IMG/VR virus record: IMGVR_UViG_3300027770_000118
Location: 1-39,010 of that record
Source of the DNA: a virus
Reading direction: 5' to 3' (one strand)
Length of the DNA stretch: 39,010 bases
Under the pieces are notes generated by a model. It was not told the origin of the DNA and did no database searches. It saw only the letters and a program-made list of their open reading frames with translations. Shown here piece by piece: positions 2,427 to 12,031 of this stretch. The position numbers and the translations under genes were made by a program. How positions within the stretch are numbered: the stretch's first letter is position 1; each line of letters opens with the position of its first letter.

Positions 2427-5378
2427 TTAGGCCAGCGCCACTGATTTCCAAGCGAATCCGTTGTGAATGTAAAGCACGTTGGTGTTGGTGCTGTTGTTTG
2501 TGTGGAAAAACATTGGCACATTATCAATGCCCGTGTTGGTGGGGGTGTTGCTCGGTGCTGTCGGGCCTGCCGGAATATAGACAAACCCATCAACCATCGT
2601 CGAATATCCGAGAGGCCCCTTGAAGTCGCTGTTCACCTGATTCCAGGCCGATCCCTTGATCAATTTGCCGGTGATTCCATCGAACAGCACGAAGTTGTTG
2701 TTAGGGGAAGAACCAGGCCCCACCACGTCGCCAGATCCGCTTCCAGTAGTGTTCAGCACGCCGGCAGTCAGCGACAGGCCTGCGCCCAACGTAAGCTGCT
2801 CCACACTACCCGTGCCTGCCGTGCTGCGCCCAAGCACCCGGGCGGTTGCACAGGTTATCCCGGTGTTTTGAATGGCTACCGGAAAAGTACAGTTGGTCAG
2901 CGTACCACCAGATGGCGTGCCGATGTTGGGAGTCAGTAGGCTGACATTTGTCAGAATGGCTGACGTCGCACGCACCAGATTGCCGGTGCCCGTAGTCGCC
3001 CCCACCTTGATAATTTTTCCGGTGGTGCCATTGAAAACAGCTACATCCCCATCGACCGCCACACTAGGGCCGGTGACATCCCCTGAACCACTAGCGGTAG
3101 CATTCAGCGTGTTGCCAGCCATTGAGAGGCCTGTGCCCAGAATAACCTCGTCGATAGCATTGCCCAACGGGCTGCTGCCCAGGAGCCTTGAGGTAGTGCT
3201 GGCAGCCTGGATCTTGCCGTAGGTGACTGCGTTCGCCGCAATGGTCGCAGCGAATGACCCGGTGCCAGACCCACCAACATCACCGGTCAACGTAATCGTC
3301 TGGTCGCCAGTGTTGGTGCCCGAGGACGTGCCGGTGTGCGTGCCGCTCAAGTTGCTCCCAGTGACCGTACCAGTCGCAGCCACCGAGGCTGGCGTGATGG
3401 CCCCCAGGACAATCGTGATGGCCGGGGTGCTGGTTGGGTTGGCCACCGTACCGCTGACTCCGTTTGCCGTGGTGACTGAGGCCGTGGTGACCGTGCCGGA
3501 GTTGTTGGTAAACCCACTGGGGTTGGCCGCGGGATAGGCTCCCAACGAAGTAAGGGCTGCAGCAGCGCTGGTGGCTCCTGTACCGCCATTGGTGAGCGCC
3601 AAAGTGCCGCCGAGGGTAAGAGTGCCCGAAGTGGTCACCGGGCCGCCTGTGAAGCTCATGCCCGTGGTCGAGCCATCGGCATTGACCGAGGTCACCGTGC
3701 CCGTGCCTGGTGCCGAGGCAGACAGCGTGTTGCCCACCATCGACAGGTTGGCTCCTAGGTTGATCTCGCCGATGCTGTTGCCTGTGGCATCGGACCCAAG
3801 CAGGCGCTTGATAGCGGCAGCCGTCTGGATCTTGTCGTAGGTCACCGCGCCATTGGTGATCGTGGTCGCGAAGGTGGTGCTGCCTGTGCCTGTCACCGGC
3901 CCGGTCAGCGTGATGATCTGGTCACCGGTGTTCGCTCCCGAGGTGCTCCCGGAGATGTTGGTGCCGGTCACCGAGCCGGTGGAGGCTACCGAGGTGGGCG
4001 TGATTGCTCCCAGGCCTAGCGAGATGGCCGGGGTCGTTGTCGATGTCCCCACCGAGGCTGTGATGCCGTTGGAAGCGGTCACCGTGACGTCGGTCACCGT
4101 CCCCCCGGTGCCTGTGGCCGAGAGCACGGTGCCGGCAAACGAGATACCGCTGCCCAGGCTGATCTCCTCCACAGCGCCGCCGCTAGTGCTCCTACCCAGC
4201 AGCCGGTTGTTGGTGCCGATGGTTAGGCCCGAGGCCGTGATGGGGCCACTAGCCGCCGCTCCGAGGGTTGTGCGTTGATCGGCAGCACTGGCGTCGTCCA
4301 GGAGGGCCCGGCCTGCCGCGGTGCAGGTGATCTCCTCGATCAGCCCTGGCCCTGCAGATTGACGGCCCAACAAGCGGTCGGTGGCGCTCACATACTGCAT
4401 TTTGTCGTAGGTGACAGCCTGAGGGGTGATCACAGCCGGGATGCGGCCTGTGCCCTGCCCGGTGACATCACCGGTCTCAAGGATGTAGTCGCCGGCCTCG
4501 GTGATTAGGAAGTCGCTGCCCTCGGTCAGCATCCGGTCGCCGCTCAGGATGATCACCTGGTCGCCGGTGTTGACGCCTGAAAGGTTGGAGCCCGTGACCG
4601 TAGCCCCGGCAGATATTGCCCCCGAGGCAGTCACACTGGTGGGAGTGATTGCTCCCAGGGCTAGAGTGATGGCTGGCGTTGTCGTGGACGTTGCTACGGA
4701 GCCCGACACGCCGTTTGCGGTAACCACAGATACGTCCGTAACCGTTCCGCTTCCAGCCGGTCCCGGGGGACCAGCGGGGCCTACAGGTCCAGCCGGGCCA
4801 GGTGCCCCCTGGATGCCCGATCCACCGGAGGGCTTGGTCAGGCCGGTGTCTAGCCTGGTGATCTCGCAGATGGCGTAGATTTCCGGGATACCTGTGAGGC
4901 CAGCAGCAACACCAAGGTGATCAGCGCCTGCTGCCGAGATGTAGTATTCAAGCCTATAGACATTGTCCTTGTGGGGCTGCACCCGGACATTGATGTCGTT
5001 GTAGGTGTTTGACTGATTGCTCACCTCCACCGACACGCCGTAACCAATGATTACATCGACGCCTGCCTCTGCACTAGCTGTGACGTCGTAGATCCGCATC
5101 CTGGTGTGACCAGTGTGCAGTAAGGCAGCCATGGCCCGGATCTGGTAGGCACCTGCTGCCAGTTTGAACTGGTTGGCAGTCAGGTCGAGGATGAGCCCGT
5201 TGGGATCGAAGGAGATGGTGTTAAGATCCCTGGTCGTCCAGGTAGTCGCCACACCGTTGCCTCCACTGGTGCCCGAGGTCTTGCTGTCGGTAAGGACAGC
5301 GACCTTCAGGGTCAAGGAGTCGACGTCTTTCCTGAGCTTGTTGATCAGGGTGGTGCTGGTCTGTGAATCGTAGCTCAT
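2427..5378 (-). CDS. Collagen-like repetitive tail fibre
   Basis: The protein has 983 residues. The N-terminus has a short helical part, then a beta-rich domain (about residues 40-175) with a C1q/TNF-like jelly-roll pattern. Next comes a Gly-x-y collagen-like segment (about 188-211, GAPGPAGPVGPAGPPGPAG). The rest is a long Thr/Ser/Gly-rich region with near-repeats: LGAITPxSVxxxGxVTGxNLSG followed by NTGDQ, then a strand-turn unit (ITLTGxVxGxGxxxFxxTI) and a VTYDKIQ/LLGR unit. Such repeats form trimeric beta structures in phage fibres. The last 100 residues differ and are likely the tip. It should bind the host surface. ATG 5378 overlaps the upstream stop (ATGA). Confidence 0.85.
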   Translation of the reverse strand: MSYDSQTSTTLINKLRKDVDSLTLKVAVLTDSKTSGTSGGNGVATTWTTRDLNTISFDPNGLILDLTANQFKLAAGAYQIRAMAALLHTGHTRMRIYDVTASAEAGVDVIIGYGVSVEVSNQSNTYNDINVRVQPHKDNVYRLEYYISAAGADHLGVAAGLTGIPEIYAICEITRLDTGLTKPSGGSGIQGAPGPAGPVGPAGPPGPAGSGTVTDVSVVTANGVSGSVATSTTTPAITLALGAITPTSVTASGAISAGATVTGSNLSGVNTGDQVIILSGDRMLTEGSDFLITEAGDYILETGDVTGQGTGRIPAVITPQAVTYDKMQYVSATDRLLGRQSAGPGLIEEITCTAAGRALLDDASAADQRTTLGAAASGPITASGLTIGTNNRLLGRSTSGGAVEEISLGSGISFAGTVLSATGTGGTVTDVTVTASNGITASVGTSTTTPAISLGLGAITPTSVASTGSVTGTNISGSTSGANTGDQIITLTGPVTGTGSTTFATTITNGAVTYDKIQTAAAIKRLLGSDATGNSIGEINLGANLSMVGNTLSASAPGTGTVTSVNADGSTTGMSFTGGPVTTSGTLTLGGTLALTNGGTGATSAAAALTSLGAYPAANPSGFTNNSGTVTTASVTTANGVSGTVANPTSTPAITIVLGAITPASVAATGTVTGSNLSGTHTGTSSGTNTGDQTITLTGDVGGSGTGSFAATIAANAVTYGKIQAASTTSRLLGSSPLGNAIDEVILGTGLSMAGNTLNATASGSGDVTGPSVAVDGDVAVFNGTTGKIIKVGATTGTGNLVRATSAILTNVSLLTPNIGTPSGGTLTNCTFPVAIQNTGITCATARVLGRSTAGTGSVEQLTLGAGLSLTAGVLNTTGSGSGDVVGPGSSPNNNFVLFDGITGKLIKGSAWNQVNSDFKGPLGYSTMVDGFVYIPAGPTAPSNTPTNTGIDNVPMFFHTNNSTNTNVLYIHNGFAWKSVALA

Positions 5379-8300
5379 CGGTTGCCCTTACGTCGGAGGA
5401 TTCGCTGGGCTTCGTCAAGGCTGCTGGCGATGCCTATAAGGCTGCCTGCGGGGCCGTAGAGGCGAAGTGAGCCTTTGGCCTTGCCTGGGAGGGCACGGTA
5501 GCCACCGGGGAACGAGTAGGCCCCGGGCATGGCGGAGTCGGGGGAGGGCATATAGCGGATGTCCTCTGAGGTTGCCTTGAACCGCTGCGAGAGGGGGATG
5601 ACGTTGCCGGCGTCGTCCTTGGTGATGGGGTCGGCGAGCTTAACCTGAGACGAATCTTTTACCGACAGTATCAGTCCAGTTGAGTTTCGGATTACAGGCT
5701 CCTTGAGATAAGCGGCAACCTTTATGTCTCCGCGTTTACCAAACAGCGTCTTGCTTGGAGTGAACTGGATCAGCCCATTTTTACCAGGTTCAAACACAGT
5801 GAACTTCGAAGGTGTGTTGTGATAAACCGGGTCACCTTCATTGTATTTTGGACCAGAAAGCTCACTTGCGTCGAGGTATCCAGCCGCTTTTGCAGCCTGT
5901 CCAACCATCCGCTGGGCGGTGGCCGTGTCGCCCTTCTTCACTGCGGAGAGGTAGTCGGTGTCCGAGGCAGGCATGAAGCGCTCACCCGAGGACGGCTGCC
6001 TGTAAAACCGTTCGGATATCGCGTAGTCCTTGTTTTTGCCCGGCTTGTTTTCAACGAATCCAAATTGCTTGTAGAACTTTTCGAGCCTTCCCTTCGATGT
6101 GGCTCCAAGCTCGTCGCTTGGGTTGATGCGGATTTGCTTTCCAGTAAGGTCAGCAAACGCAACCAGGTCCTTCATAAATGCGGTCCCAAGGCCTTTGTTG
6201 CGATTGGCTTTGTCGACCTCAATCTTGGAAGGCCTGATGTGTTCGTACGGAGTCCCTTTTTCTCGGATATCCGTCATGTTGCGAACACCAAGCGCGTTCC
6301 AATGTTCTCGGAAACTGTCGACGTTTTCGTAGCGCTTTGGAGCGGTCTCAACACCGGCAGGCATATAGCGCTGGCCCTCAACAGAAGCCCCCTCGTCCGG
6401 TGCTAGGCCTTCGTTCCAAGTCCAATCCGGCATGAGTCCGGTCTTCTGATCGGCGAATACGGTGTCCTCTGTTTTGGCTGTGCGATTGCGCTCGCCATGC
6501 GGGCCGTAATTCAGCCAACTGTTTTGCCCCCGAGTCTCGGTGGTAATAGCGCCACGAGCAGGCCCCGTAAAGAGCCGGATGTGCGCCTGCCAGGCATTCT
6601 CCTCGCCCTGAGCTCGGAAGCCAGATCCCTCCATGCCATGACCGAAAGCGTCGTGCACGGCGCGGAATAGGTCGTTGGCATAAACGGTTCGCAATTCACC
6701 GTTGGGCCCACCGAACGGCCAACGCAAACCAGTATCGGCAAGCATTGGGTTTGATTCTGGATTGAAGTCCTCCTTGGTTCCAAACCCAGAGTCTGTTGGG
6801 AAAACCCCCATCGACTTGTTTGCGCGGAGGTCGCGCATGGCGTTGAACGGAGATGATGCGTACTGCTGCCCCGCATCCGAGTTGATATCAATGAACCAAA
6901 ACTTGTATCCCGCTGAATCAAGCGCTTGATACTGATCCGTGGTTTGGCGGATCAAGTCCTGGTAGGCTTCGCGCACCGCAGGATCTTGCGGTGCATGAGG
7001 CATCTCCTCGTAGGCCTGAGCAATTCTGCGAGCGCGATCCTCGTCTACCTTAACGTACTCCGATTGGCGACGGAGACCGATTCCTTTGTCCCTGGCGTAC
7101 CACTCTGCGATGCCAACCAGGCTCTGGTCTGGCCCACTAGCGCCTTTGACCTGTGGAGCGCCTGCAAGCGGCGCAAGGTTCCCAGACGTATACCGTCCTT
7201 CTCCTCGGTCTCCACGTCCTCCTCGTTGTTCTGGGGCTTGTTCATAAAGTTTTTCTCCTCCGGCAGGCATGAAATACGCTAGACGGGACGGTGAGTCAAT
7301 TTGCCTTCTCTTCCATTTCTCGCCTGCCTCCGGCGTGCTTCCGTACCCGGCAGCCTTGTTTGCTTTCTGCGCTTCGCCCAGTTGCCGGTCGTTCAAGGCA
7401 GGCAATTTGTCGAGCCCAGGGAACATGACCTCATGCGGCTCAACTCGTCCCCGAATGCGATCCCAGAGGGTCCATTGAGCCGGGAAGACAGCAACGCCAA
7501 GCTCGTTTGCCCGGCGCTCGTTGATCTCAAGTGCTGAGCGGTAGGAATCCGACATTACCTGGAAGTCTTTTGGAGTCTCAACCCACTCAACCGACTTAAT
7601 GTTCGCCGGAGCATTCGGGTTGATGCCGCCTTTCTTGGCTATCAGCGTTGCCTTGCGGCTGCCCATGGCAGCAAACACGGCCTCATTGACGAATTTCTGG
7701 ACGCGATCAGCACCGTAGATTTGCGCTTGACCTAGAACGTCATCAATAGTTTTTGCCCGAGTTGCCGTTGGGTCTGGCAACGAATCCAAGGTGGATGCCA
7801 TTTCGGCTTTGATGCTCTTGATGCGTTTATCGTTTTTGGCCTTTAGCGTCTTGAGCGTTTTCGGGTCGTCCTTGTTGATCTCCTCAATGCGCTTCCCTTT
7901 TTCCTCGGCATTTTTGAGCCGGCGATTGAAGGCCGATGTGGCTTCCTTCGACTTCTTCAGCATCGAATTGAAGCGGTCGACAACGATGCCTTCAAACCGT
8001 TTGCGGAGCTCTGGGTTTCCAAGCAGCTCCTGGCCAAAGATGCGAGCCATGTGGCGGTCCATGGCCGATATGGATGCCTTGAGCGGATCTTGCCACACAG
8101 ATCCGAATGATCCTGTTTTGGTGCCAAACCCTTTGATTTGAGTTGTCAGCTTGTCGACAAAGTCTGCCCAAGATTCGTTGGCTTTTTTGACAAAGAAGTC
8201 TGGGTTCTTGGTGAACAACCGAGCGGCATTTACGATGTTTGATATGTCCGCGGTGATTGCAATGCCAAGGCCACCCTTGCCAGCAGAGATGAACCCTAAC

Positions 8301-11300
8301 TCCTTTTTGAGTCGTTGGTTCAGCTCCTTTAGGTTTTCTTTAGTCGGGTTCTCTGGGTATAGACTGGCAAATTTGCGCACATCTTCCATCGAACCAAACC
8401 GCAATCGTGCCATCCCCATTTCATTGGGAAGCAACGGAGCATTCGGGGAGAGCATCCCGAAGACAATGGAGTTGAAGCTGGAAACCTTGTCCCCAGGTGT
8501 GGGAGCCATTGTCGCCGCCAGCTTGGCTGTCAGCTTGGCGTGCGTTGTCTCTGGCAGGTTTGCTACGTCGACCGGATTGGTTTTGAGCCAGAGGAGATCG
8601 TAGTACGTGAACTTGCCCTCAAGGCCGCCGGGTATTCTCGCAGGATCTCCAGCCACGTCCGAGGGGATGTTTGTGATTTCTGAAAGAGGTCCAAGGTTTT
8701 CGACGCCGAATGCTTTGCCGTATTCCTCAAACTCCTTTGGAGTCCAGTCTTTCGGTTCTTTGCCTTTGAAGTAGATGTTTCCATTTTGATCCCTTGAAAC
8801 TCCTGGAGCTTCAAAAGATGCACGCCGGGGAAGACCTTCCGCAACTTGTTTTCTGGCCGCCTCCTCTTCAGCCGGCATGAACCTTACATCCCCCGCTTGT
8901 CGAACCGCCCCGCCTTCGCCTTGGCCTTCTTGGCCACGCTCAATGCGATTGCCACCGCCTGCTTCTGCGGTTTGCCGGACTTCATCTCCCGCTTGACGTT
9001 GCTGCTGACGGACTTCTGGCTGTAGCCTTGTTTGAGTGGCATCTGCTTTCCTTTCTGCTTGGGTTTGGGTGTCGTAGATCCCGATCAGTTTGCCGTCGGG
9101 ACCGTAGAGTCGGTGCTTGGCACCGCTGATAATGCGGTAGCCTTCCTCGGAGTTGATGACCGATTTGTCGCCGACGGTCTCCGCGGGCATCCAGCGCATC
9201 TTGGACTTCTGGATGGCGTCCTCGGAGATACGGGCGCGGAAGTCCATCGGGGCTGTCGATCCGATGCGGTCCAGGCGGAAGTCGCGCACGAACTTGCGCC
9301 CGCCCTTCTCCTGCTCGTTTACGAAGTCACCGAGGAACTTCGCCTTCTCCAGGCCGAAGATCTCGGCCGACCGGCGGGCGCCCTCACCGGCGTCCAGGTT
9401 GGTGAAGTACGCGGCCAGATCCGACATGAACCCGTCGACATTGTCCCACAGGCCCTTGGCTACACTTCCATCGGGAGCAGTCAGCTTGTCCAATGCACCA
9501 CGGATCTTGCTGATGTCGATGGCCTTGATGACCGGGTTGTCGGCCTTCGACAGGTAGAAGCTGTATGGCAGCAACTCGCGCTGGGAGAGACGAATGCCGC
9601 TGTTGTATTTGCTGGTAAACTTGCCGGTCTGTCGGTTCTTCACCCGGCGGGTAGCAGCACCGTAGTTCACAAAGATGCTGTTGCCGGCATCCATGGCTGC
9701 ATTCACAGCCCGGATCTTGTCCTTCATCCGGCTGCTGACTGCCTGGGACTGCTCGATGGCAGACAACTGCTGCGGGCTGAACCGGCCCAGGATCTCACCA
9801 TCGACCACGCGGGCACCCGGGACGCCTTCTAGGATTGTCCTTATGGCAGTGGTGTCTTTCTCTTCGCGGACTCGGATCTCCTCGTCTGAGAGGTTCCTGA
9901 CGCTGCCATCGGGCATCTTCTCAGCTACACCAAGATCCACCAACTGCTTGGCGGCAATCGGGTTAGAGACATCCTGAGGCTTCAAGACCTTACCCGGTCC
10001 CTCGTTCTCTATCGTGATGCGCTCGTCCAGCTTGCGCCGGGCACGCAACAGGTCGCGCAGCATGGCGTTCACCTGTGGAGAAGCCTGCTTTAAGTCCGGG
10101 AACAGCACCGAGTCGGTTGGCTTGACTCCGAAAGTGCGCTCAATGGTCGCCGCGGCATCGGCTAAAGCCCGACTAGCATTCTGGGTCAGTGCGGAGTCGA
10201 GCAACTGACGAGTAATACCTGAAAAGCCCTTTAGCAATGCATCAGGCTTCTGACCGGCTAGGAGTCCGGCAAAGTGCTCTGCTGCAAGCTCAGAAGCCAC
10301 GTAGCCAGCCTTCTTGTCGATGGTGTCGAACTGGGCGAGCTGGTCGGCACGTTCCTGACTGCCTGCGGCCAGCTTGTCTCGGTACTGATTGAAACGGGCC
10401 TCGATCTCGGCGTCATTGAAAGCGCCCTCGGCCAGCTTGCGAGTGATGTCGCCCTCCTGAACCCAGCGTCCGACGAGCGCATCCTTGATCTCAGTGGCGC
10501 CGCCCTCAAGTTGGGTCGTCTTCTCAAGAGCGTGGAAGAGCTCATGGCCGAGCGTGTAGAGCGGGCCGTCTCCGGTGCCTTTGCCGATGATGTCGGCGTT
10601 TATGAATATAGTGGGCCGTTCAGCTTGCTCGAACTGCACGCCGCGGATGTTGTCGCCGAACTTTTCGGCCATCTGGGCATTGGAACGATAGAGGATGTCG
10701 ACATCCCCGAACTTGCCTCGAACCAATCCCTGCAGATCCATCAGCGCCGAGGCAGCATCGACCCCATGCGTATCCCGCACCCGCTCAAACAGCGCCTTGG
10801 TCGTCGGGTCCTGCTGCCCGTCGATGAATCGTCCCAGGTCGCCTGCCCGGGCCTCCTTGGCGGCCCTGCCTGTGAGCCGCTCGAAGCCGCGGGCACCGAG
10901 GGCACCTGCTGCGCCCTGGGCAAGGCCAGATCCAACGCCAGCGGCCGCACCTTCTTCGCCGCCGGACAAAAAACCCAAGCCTGCACCAACTGCTGCACCT
11001 TCAATACCTCCGGCAATACCCCTCAGTGAGGCATCCAAGGCAGCGTCACCGCCGTACTGCCCGACCACACCGAGCATCCGTTGGCGCAGATTAGCACCTG
11101 GAGCAGCACCGATGGCCTCCAGAGGACCAATTCGGGAGGGCTGGGTCATCAGGTTCTCGCCGGCACGAGCCAATGCCTCACCGGCCTCTCGGGCTGTACG
11201 GATGCCGGCAGGGATTGCTGCAAAGGCAGCAGCCTCGGGGGCAATGCCAAGGGCACCTGCGATGCCGGCGGTAGCTGCAGTGCTGCGGAGCGCTTCTGGC

Positions 11301-12031
11301 GTCACGCCAACGGCTTCTGCAGTAAGACGCTCGGCAGCACCGGCAAAGCGCTCCAGAGGCCTTGCAACGCCGGCAACGGCCCGCCCGGTGAGTTGGGCTC
11401 CCTTACCGACAGCACGGGTGGCTAGCTTGCCTGCGCCGAAAATCTCACCGATGCCGGGGAGAGCCAGTGTCGGGTCGAGAATCATGGACACGCCCTGAAC
11501 GAACTCCGGGTTGGTGTACTCGGGAGGGACAACGATGCCTTCCTCGCCTCGCTCAAGTCGGGCGGTGGTGTTGGCGAAGTCGCGGGCCTCGAGGAACTGG
11601 CTGTAGCGGGATTCCGGGGTGCCGGTGCCTGCGACGAGGTCCTTGAACTTAAAGAGTGGAGAGGCCGGGTCCTGCGATTGCGCAACAAGGCCGTAGAGCT
11701 GGCGGGTGCCCTGAGCCGCGCCCTCAATGTAGTTGAGCGGGTTGGCAACAGCGCCCTGAGCGCCCTCGGATATGGCACCGCTGATCATTCCGGCGGCAGC
11801 ATCCACCGACTGCGCGATGGTGTTGACCCAGTCGGTCTGCTTGTTCTTGGAGAACTCCTCAAACTTGAGATAGTCGTCGACCGACGGCTTGTAGGCCGGG
11901 TCCTGCATGGCACCGGCAATGTCCTCGCCGGTGGCTGGGAACTGCTCGGACAGAATCCGCTGGGCCTCATCCTGGCCAACAGAATCAGGGAACTCGACAA
12001 CCTGAGAGCCGACCTGGATCTGGTATGGCAT
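5375..12031 (-). CDS. Giant polyvalent virion protein: metallopeptidase, GNAT and ART-like domains
   Basis: This 2218-residue protein is probably carried in the virion and ejected. The first 35 residues match the EFPD...EAQRILSEQFP start seen on phage internal proteins. An Ala/Gly-rich helical part (about 90-400) could interact with membranes. HELFH at 496-500 is a zinc-metallopeptidase motif. A conserved block near 1793-1837 holds HDAFGH, GEENAW and ETRGQNSW and is typical of phage polyvalent proteins. A GNAT acetyltransferase-like domain lies near 1900-1990 (NRNKGLG at 1943). An ADP-ribosyltransferase-like domain lies near 2060-2160 (PVYHNT...FTPSK). Aromatic-Met-Pro-Ala/Ser motifs occur with Met at 948, 1052, 1588, 1890, 2020 and 2161, apparently at domain borders. 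YGPxGxLIGI occurs twice (976, 2192). Domain calls come from motifs only. Confidence 0.8.
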   Translation of the reverse strand: MPYQIQVGSQVVEFPDSVGQDEAQRILSEQFPATGEDIAGAMQDPAYKPSVDDYLKFEEFSKNKQTDWVNTIAQSVDAAAGMISGAISEGAQGAVANPLNYIEGAAQGTRQLYGLVAQSQDPASPLFKFKDLVAGTGTPESRYSQFLEARDFANTTARLERGEEGIVVPPEYTNPEFVQGVSMILDPTLALPGIGEIFGAGKLATRAVGKGAQLTGRAVAGVARPLERFAGAAERLTAEAVGVTPEALRSTAATAGIAGALGIAPEAAAFAAIPAGIRTAREAGEALARAGENLMTQPSRIGPLEAIGAAPGANLRQRMLGVVGQYGGDAALDASLRGIAGGIEGAAVGAGLGFLSGGEEGAAAGVGSGLAQGAAGALGARGFERLTGRAAKEARAGDLGRFIDGQQDPTTKALFERVRDTHGVDAASALMDLQGLVRGKFGDVDILYRSNAQMAEKFGDNIRGVQFEQAERPTIFINADIIGKGTGDGPLYTLGHELFHALEKTTQLEGGATEIKDALVGRWVQEGDITRKLAEGAFNDAEIEARFNQYRDKLAAGSQERADQLAQFDTIDKKAGYVASELAAEHFAGLLAGQKPDALLKGFSGITRQLLDSALTQNASRALADAAATIERTFGVKPTDSVLFPDLKQASPQVNAMLRDLLRARRKLDERITIENEGPGKVLKPQDVSNPIAAKQLVDLGVAEKMPDGSVRNLSDEEIRVREEKDTTAIRTILEGVPGARVVDGEILGRFSPQQLSAIEQSQAVSSRMKDKIRAVNAAMDAGNSIFVNYGAATRRVKNRQTGKFTSKYNSGIRLSQRELLPYSFYLSKADNPVIKAIDISKIRGALDKLTAPDGSVAKGLWDNVDGFMSDLAAYFTNLDAGEGARRSAEIFGLEKAKFLGDFVNEQEKGGRKFVRDFRLDRIGSTAPMDFRARISEDAIQKSKMRWMPAETVGDKSVINSEEGYRIISGAKHRLYGPDGKLIGIYDTQTQAERKADATQTRLQPEVRQQQRQAGDEVRQTAEAGGGNRIERGQEGQGEGGAVRQAGDVRFMPAEEEAARKQVAEGLPRRASFEAPGVSRDQNGNIYFKGKEPKDWTPKEFEEYGKAFGVENLGPLSEITNIPSDVAGDPARIPGGLEGKFTYYDLLWLKTNPVDVANLPETTHAKLTAKLAATMAPTPGDKVSSFNSIVFGMLSPNAPLLPNEMGMARLRFGSMEDVRKFASLYPENPTKENLKELNQRLKKELGFISAGKGGLGIAITADISNIVNAARLFTKNPDFFVKKANESWADFVDKLTTQIKGFGTKTGSFGSVWQDPLKASISAMDRHMARIFGQELLGNPELRKRFEGIVVDRFNSMLKKSKEATSAFNRRLKNAEEKGKRIEEINKDDPKTLKTLKAKNDKRIKSIKAEMASTLDSLPDPTATRAKTIDDVLGQAQIYGADRVQKFVNEAVFAAMGSRKATLIAKKGGINPNAPANIKSVEWVETPKDFQVMSDSYRSALEINERRANELGVAVFPAQWTLWDRIRGRVEPHEVMFPGLDKLPALNDRQLGEAQKANKAAGYGSTPEAGEKWKRRQIDSPSRLAYFMPAGGEKLYEQAPEQRGGRGDRGEGRYTSGNLAPLAGAPQVKGASGPDQSLVGIAEWYARDKGIGLRRQSEYVKVDEDRARRIAQAYEEMPHAPQDPAVREAYQDLIRQTTDQYQALDSAGYKFWFIDINSDAGQQYASSPFNAMRDLRANKSMGVFPTDSGFGTKEDFNPESNPMLADTGLRWPFGGPNGELRTVYANDLFRAVHDAFGHGMEGSGFRAQGEENAWQAHIRLFTGPARGAITTETRGQNSWLNYGPHGERNRTAKTEDTVFADQKTGLMPDWTWNEGLAPDEGASVEGQRYMPAGVETAPKRYENVDSFREHWNALGVRNMTDIREKGTPYEHIRPSKIEVDKANRNKGLGTAFMKDLVAFADLTGKQIRINPSDELGATSKGRLEKFYKQFGFVENKPGKNKDYAISERFYRQPSSGERFMPASDTDYLSAVKKGDTATAQRMVGQAAKAAGYLDASELSGPKYNEGDPVYHNTPSKFTVFEPGKNGLIQFTPSKTLFGKRGDIKVAAYLKEPVIRNSTGLILSVKDSSQVKLADPITKDDAGNVIPLSQRFKATSEDIRYMPSPDSAMPGAYSFPGGYRALPGKAKGSLRLYGPAGSLIGIASSLDEAQRILRRKGNR

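Follow-up and report, generated by a model that had tools for sequence, protein, structure and literature searches.

The polyvalent protein gene and its repeated motif

The window analyzed here comprises positions 1 to 39,010 of IMG/VR virus record IMGVR_UViG_3300027770_000118. Its minus-strand open reading frame (ORF) at 5375-12031 encodes a protein of 2218 aa, in which the aromatic-Met-Pro-Ala/Ser motifs WMPA, FMPA, FMPA, YMPA, FMPA, and YMPS begin at residues 947, 1051, 1587, 1889, 2019, and 2160, respectively. The original prediction had placed the Met residues of these motifs at 948, 1052, 1588, 1890, 2020, and 2161, mostly after Arg, and a HELFH motif at residue 496. Our reading agrees, since Arg precedes five of the six motifs, Tyr precedes the one at 1587, and HELFH occurs once, at that residue. 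A chance origin of the six motifs was ruled out by 5000 composition shuffles of the protein, which averaged 0.03 motifs and never exceeded 2. The pattern [RK][FYW]MP is absent from all other coding-strand reading frames of at least 80 aa in the window.

The encoded protein is a multidomain phage protein with several unrelated effector domains, the feature by which polyvalent proteins are recognized. Its nearest entry in the viral structure library, 72% identical, is named "ART-PolyVal-like domain-containing protein," and its relatives carry the annotations ART-PolyVal-like or large polyvalent protein. A Pfam scan of the protein returned nothing above cutoff, including the hallmark ART-PolyVal and LPD domains; the polyvalent assignment is supported by the end of an ADP-ribosyltransferase (ART)-type module and by its relative in locus L077. 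The same conserved module end also flanks Pfam ART-PolyVal in other proteins. The gene shares a minus-strand block with capsid, tail fiber, and internal-virion-like genes. The adjacent gene at 2427-5378, which contains four DUF5907 repeats and has a weak collagen-like match, probably encodes a tail fiber. The features of the 2218-aa protein are as follows.

5375..12031, minus strand: polyvalent protein gene, 2218 aa (ORF and translation)
10154..10624, minus strand: zincin-like metallopeptidase (MPTase) domain, residues about 470-626 (profile common to other word-bearing polyvalent proteins; weak SprT 6mdw fold match)
10532..10546, minus strand: HELFH, residues 496-500 (H496, E497, and H500 invariant in 22 aligned relatives)
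10289..10291, minus strand: Glu581, candidate third zinc ligand (invariant in 22 aligned relatives)
9182..9193, minus strand: joint word 1, RWMPA, residues 947-950 (AF2: low-confidence linker between two folded parts)
8999..9166, minus strand: small LYGP domain at the cassette start, about residues 956-1011 (AF2 strands and helix; resembles the C-terminal cap)
8870..8881, minus strand: joint word 2, VRFMPA, residues 1051-1054, principal swap point behind the conserved N-terminal region (breakpoint in 13 relatives; AF2 disordered tail)
7274..8869, minus strand: module M1, residues 1055-1586 (exchanged as a unit among relatives; no Pfam match)
7262..7273, minus strand: joint word 3, AYFMPA, residues 1587-1590 (motif and joint reading across relatives)
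6377..7192, minus strand: module M2, residues 1614-1885 (invariant ND.FR.VHD...H, GE, H, ET..QN, and N)
6356..6367, minus strand: joint word 4, QRYMPA, residues 1889-1892 (motif and relatives' breakpoints)
5978..6355, minus strand: GNAT acetyltransferase-like module, residues 1893-2018 (Pfam Acetyltransf_7, E 3e-4, below curated cutoff; phrog_10691, E 6e-20)
5966..5977, minus strand: joint word 5, ERFMPA, residues 2019-2022 (motif and joint reading across relatives)
5555..5965, minus strand: short ART-like module, residues 2023-2159, ending in SEDIR (52% identical to the L077 ART module)
5543..5554, minus strand: joint word 6, IRYMPS, residues 2160-2163 (motif and relatives' breakpoints)
5378..5542, minus strand: fixed C-terminal cap, LYGP-type, residues 2164-2218 (kept regardless of cassette order)

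The resemblance between the LYGP mini-domain (8999-9166) and the C-terminal cap (5378-5542) means that related mini-domains bracket the payload. Module M2 (6377-7192) has invariants that resemble a metal site (HD..H, GE, H, and ET..QN). Its relatives are encoded in 593 IMG/VR stretches, 187 Mycobacterium phage records contain matches that it overlaps, and a PDB sequence search gave no convincing match for it. M2 is likely an unrecognized enzyme family.

Module exchange at the joints

A scan of IMG/VR retrieved 30 relatives of the window protein, 45-100% identical to it, in which the N-terminal 1050 and the last about 58 residues are conserved and the middle cassette varies between phages. Divergence from the window protein sets in at about residue 1056 in thirteen relatives, and others diverge at about 1895 or rejoin at about 2157. 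Reading the joints across relatives gives their true form as [R/K][F/Y/W]MP with the opening residues of the next module after it. Thus, the upstream end EVGAQR joins MPAGDMA, MPATIQR, MPSDTDY, or MPADREV in different relatives, and the downstream start MPAGDMA comes after EVGAQRY, TSEDIRF, NPQDFRY, or ESGQPRF. Among about 100 relatives, unrelated modules meet exactly at [R/K][F/Y/W]MP. The borders of distinct domains, at which the motifs had been suspected to lie, are in this way confirmed as homology breakpoints, and the search of homologues for the motif at domain joints found the module-swap breakpoints on it. In the alignments, the joints are the swap points of a module-exchange system, i.e., of domain shuffling.

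The wider clade comprises 135 distinct joint contexts, with Arg before the word in 121, and all 129 placed joints lie C-terminal of HExxH (0 N-terminal), even though about 27% of residues are N-terminal of it. Two N-terminal types, HELFH and HEILH, which are about 30% identical, share modules and word. In many HEILH-type relatives (L290-L302), the first joint reads NFQPAE rather than RWMPA, and every later joint reads RFMP. A 76% identical stretch is encoded on a contig of a Verrucomicrobiota metagenome-assembled genome (L237), a hint of the host or of a co-binned phage.

The structural setting of the words was examined by AlphaFold prediction of residues 400-1060, in which a low-confidence linker joining the LYGP domain to a helical part contains WMPA at 947, and a disordered tail contains FMPA at 1051. 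The model of residues 1560-2218 had a pLDDT of 41.5 on a shallow alignment and was excluded as evidence, and fuller alignments misplaced fragments. The flanks of words score as more disorder-like than the background does (means of 0.166 and 0.112, respectively). According to Pfam, words lie directly C-terminal of ART-PolyVal in L154, L198, L206, and L211, and they also occur around NUDIX and DUF7178 domains.

Joint words in other polyvalent proteins

Further polyvalent proteins were collected by a scan for DIR[FY]MP, which retrieved proteins with several [RK][FYW]MP each, by a scan for PDIR[FY]S, which retrieved proteins with another repeated joint peptide, and by sampling 80 M2 loci from the 593 IMG/VR stretches with a relative of this module. 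A universal R[FY]S/M motif was dropped as a candidate when protein-specific words were found instead. Repeated 4-of-5 words with nonhomologous flanks were sought without bias; besides FMPA, this search identified the words [FYW][SMT]PA[RK] (L115), RYSPGR (L167), GYSI (L180), IRKS[EA]DR (L198), KLS[VI]R (L211), LQSR (L166), Q[YF]A[LV]P (L154), RFSKRP (L125), IRESR (L206), and others. In comparison with local shuffles, a repeated word passed the 0.1% threshold in 11 of 97 polyvalent proteins and the 1% threshold in 18; most of the 97 have no clear word. The FMP-type share of the word-bearing proteins is inflated, because some proteins were fetched by the FMP pattern, while L167, L180, L198, and L206 derive from the M2 scan. 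A clear word is absent from the polyvalent proteins of the named phages checked, including F116, Jess A, Skulduggery, and Parlo. In Planktothrix phage Pag-Yong1 (L034), ESAR occurs four times, once right after M2, which is suggestive and not significant after multiple testing. Caulobacter phage polyvalent proteins, e.g., that of Jess A (L230), carry the annotation "lysis protein."

Homologous modules are followed by different words in different proteins. The word after M2 is RYMPA in the window, RYSPGR in L196, GYSIA in L180, KLSVR in L211, QYALP in L154, LQSRS in L166, and RYSPAR in L115, and the word after the ART module is RYMPS in the window, RYSPGR in L196, GYSIK in L180, RLSVR in L211, QYALP in L154, and RYSPAK in L115. 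For the 16 proteins with both modules, the agreement between post-M2 and post-ART words of the same protein exceeded all 5000 permutations, and the result stayed at 0/5000 without the FMP proteins and under three choices of the compared span. A separate permutation test on the residues following ART-type ends gave 0/5000, and 2/5000 without the FMP class. When the count was anchored on DIR under looser criteria, the signal was weak (276, with 229 expected), since the anchor is noisy; the stricter versions are clear. As judged by these sequence comparisons, the joint word belongs to the protein and not to the module.

Codon use at the joints

At the words of the non-FMP proteins, 434 pairs were identical in amino acid; 169 of these have the same codon, where codon usage would give 151.5. 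The four Leu codons at the L211 words are all different, and Ser in the words of several non-FMP proteins is coded by a mixture of TCN and AGY. Because codons in these proteins vary as codon usage predicts, it is the peptide that is selected and not the DNA, and a DNA recombination site as the sole cause of the words is ruled out by the codon test outside the FMP clade.

Sharing of some codons exceeds expectation within the FMP clade. In the window clade, the joint Tyr is TAT in 24/24 distinct contexts (e.g., 6356-6370 and 5543-5557), compared with 22% of Tyr codons overall, and the joint Phe is TTC in 44/45. The higher codon sharing and the invariant TAT make recent DNA exchange at the joints additionally likely in this clade, where the shared CGNTATATGCC may serve as a recombination anchor.

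The zincin-like metallopeptidase domain

H496, E497, H500, and the downstream E581 do not vary among the 22 aligned relatives, and most word-bearing proteins have an HExxH domain that the profile of the window MPTase matches. Of 78 word matches in the other word-bearing proteins, 75 lie C-terminal of a single HExxH or HExxxH. On a tree of the MPTase domains, the FMP-type words fall in one clade, requiring 4 changes versus 11 in shuffles, a result inflated by near-copies and including two M labels that rest on single regular-expression matches. The fold match of the domain to the SprT protease 6mdw is weak (probability 0.80, E 0.36); a PDB fold search with the domain gave nothing at E 0.001, and a PDB sequence search gave no match. 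The complete ORF of L180 (2484-12320) contains GYSI five times, yet no HExxH or HExxxH was found in its 17-kb locus.

Zincins often favor a bulky residue after the cut. This preference suggests the bond between R and [FYW] as the scissile bond, which is a guess.

Proposed processing and its alternatives

The original prediction offered two ideas for the motifs, a polyprotein cut at them to release separate effectors after ejection and a remnant of domain shuffling. The first fits the peptide-level selection, the phage-specific words, and the position of the sites C-terminal of a conserved HExxH domain. The second holds insofar as the motif marks module-swap joints, but alone it fails to account for the free codons and for the same module bearing protein-specific words.

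We consider that the words are probably cleavage sites of the in-cis zincin-like MPTase, which would free the payload effectors from a phage polyprotein; the cutting, the enzyme, and the timing are what we infer. According to this model, the conserved N-terminal half with its HExxH metallopeptidase would precede an interchangeable effector cassette, followed by the short cap; the MPTase would recognize and cut [R/K][F/Y/W]-M-P at each joint, and processing would release M1, M2, the GNAT-like and ART-like modules, and others as separate proteins. Other polyvalent proteins would be built in the same way, using a different word. The broader proposition, to which we give about even chances, is that ejected polyvalent proteins process themselves as polyproteins, each lineage's in-cis metallopeptidase having a private word of 4 to 6 residues to which captured modules are adapted, so that protease and word would co-diverge and the payload would be of a plug-in type.

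The words might instead be docking or translocation signals to which a virion component or an ejection component binds, the modules being packaged or threaded separately along an uncut chain. Peptide-level selection, protein specificity, and linker position would suit any short linear recognition motif, and the gene stands in a block with structural and internal-virion-like genes. This explanation is nevertheless unlikely in our view, as it leaves unexplained both the HExxH domain N-terminal of the sites and the clustering of FMP-type words on one MPTase clade. We regard as distinctly unlikely that the words are DNA-level recombination sites or shuffling scars with no role as peptides. Breakpoints do coincide with the words, and the window clade has its invariant TAT and its excess codon sharing; against this, codons elsewhere follow codon usage with unconnected Ser codon families mixed, F/Y/W and R/K interchange within words, and the word tracks the protein rather than the module and is found only C-terminal of the protease domain.

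Cutting of the words by another protease, from head maturation or from the host, would accommodate L180, which has words without HExxH, and P1 DdrB is described by Iyer et al. as processed before packaging, with other timings possible (PMC5512222). It is improbable to a still greater degree, given that no further protease gene was found among the window genes scanned, that a different word per phage is unexpected from a host protease, and that the placement of the sites is ordered with respect to the in-cis MPTase. Finally, the suggestion that the motif Met is an internal start codon from which modules are translated, to which the Met at the start of each downstream module in the window clade lends itself, has hardly any probability left, as inspection revealed no consistent ribosome site upstream, and it was rejected because the words of most other proteins lack Met.

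Comparison with known systems

Autoproteolysis of polyvalent proteins by their MPTase, before or after ejection, was proposed by Iyer et al. 2017 (PMC5512222), who also note that some polyvalent proteins function or are transported without being cut. The window protein shares with the proteins described there the large mosaic of MPTase, ART-like, and GNAT-like modules. The difference is the protein-specific joint word identified and tested here; the available passages of that paper contain no cleavage-site motif. A literature search on the motif and on processed polyvalent proteins, with most subscription journals outside its scope, found only PMC5512222 and papers by overlapping authors. In the papers searched, we found no earlier report of the private punctuation or of its link with a protease clade, the components being of known kinds.

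Polyvalent proteins are common in phages, and the joint words bear on the question of how many effectors are delivered from a single chain. With a joint word that can be read, the precise borders of the modules and the resulting products would become predictable. We know of no tested activity for this protease family; the words would supply it with substrates and turn the 2017 proposal into a direct test. If words and MPTases diverge together across polyvalent proteins, they would provide matched pairs for studying the evolution of protease specificity.

In virion maturation by T4 gp21 and phiKZ gp175, one phage protease cuts several substrates at a short repeated motif. The scheme proposed here likewise has one protease and a short repeated site; it differs in that a single chain carries the repeated sites, placed where exchangeable effectors join, and in that the word varies by phage. 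Polymorphic toxins of the CdiA type exchange modules at a short conserved VENN-type peptide, a single joint before a single toxin. Exchange at a short conserved peptide is common to both systems, whereas the polyvalent proteins have several joints per chain and protein-specific words. RNA-virus polyproteins resemble the proposed arrangement in combining, within one chain, a protease and several cognate sites at domain joints; here, by contrast, the chain is a DNA phage protein with exchangeable conflict effectors.
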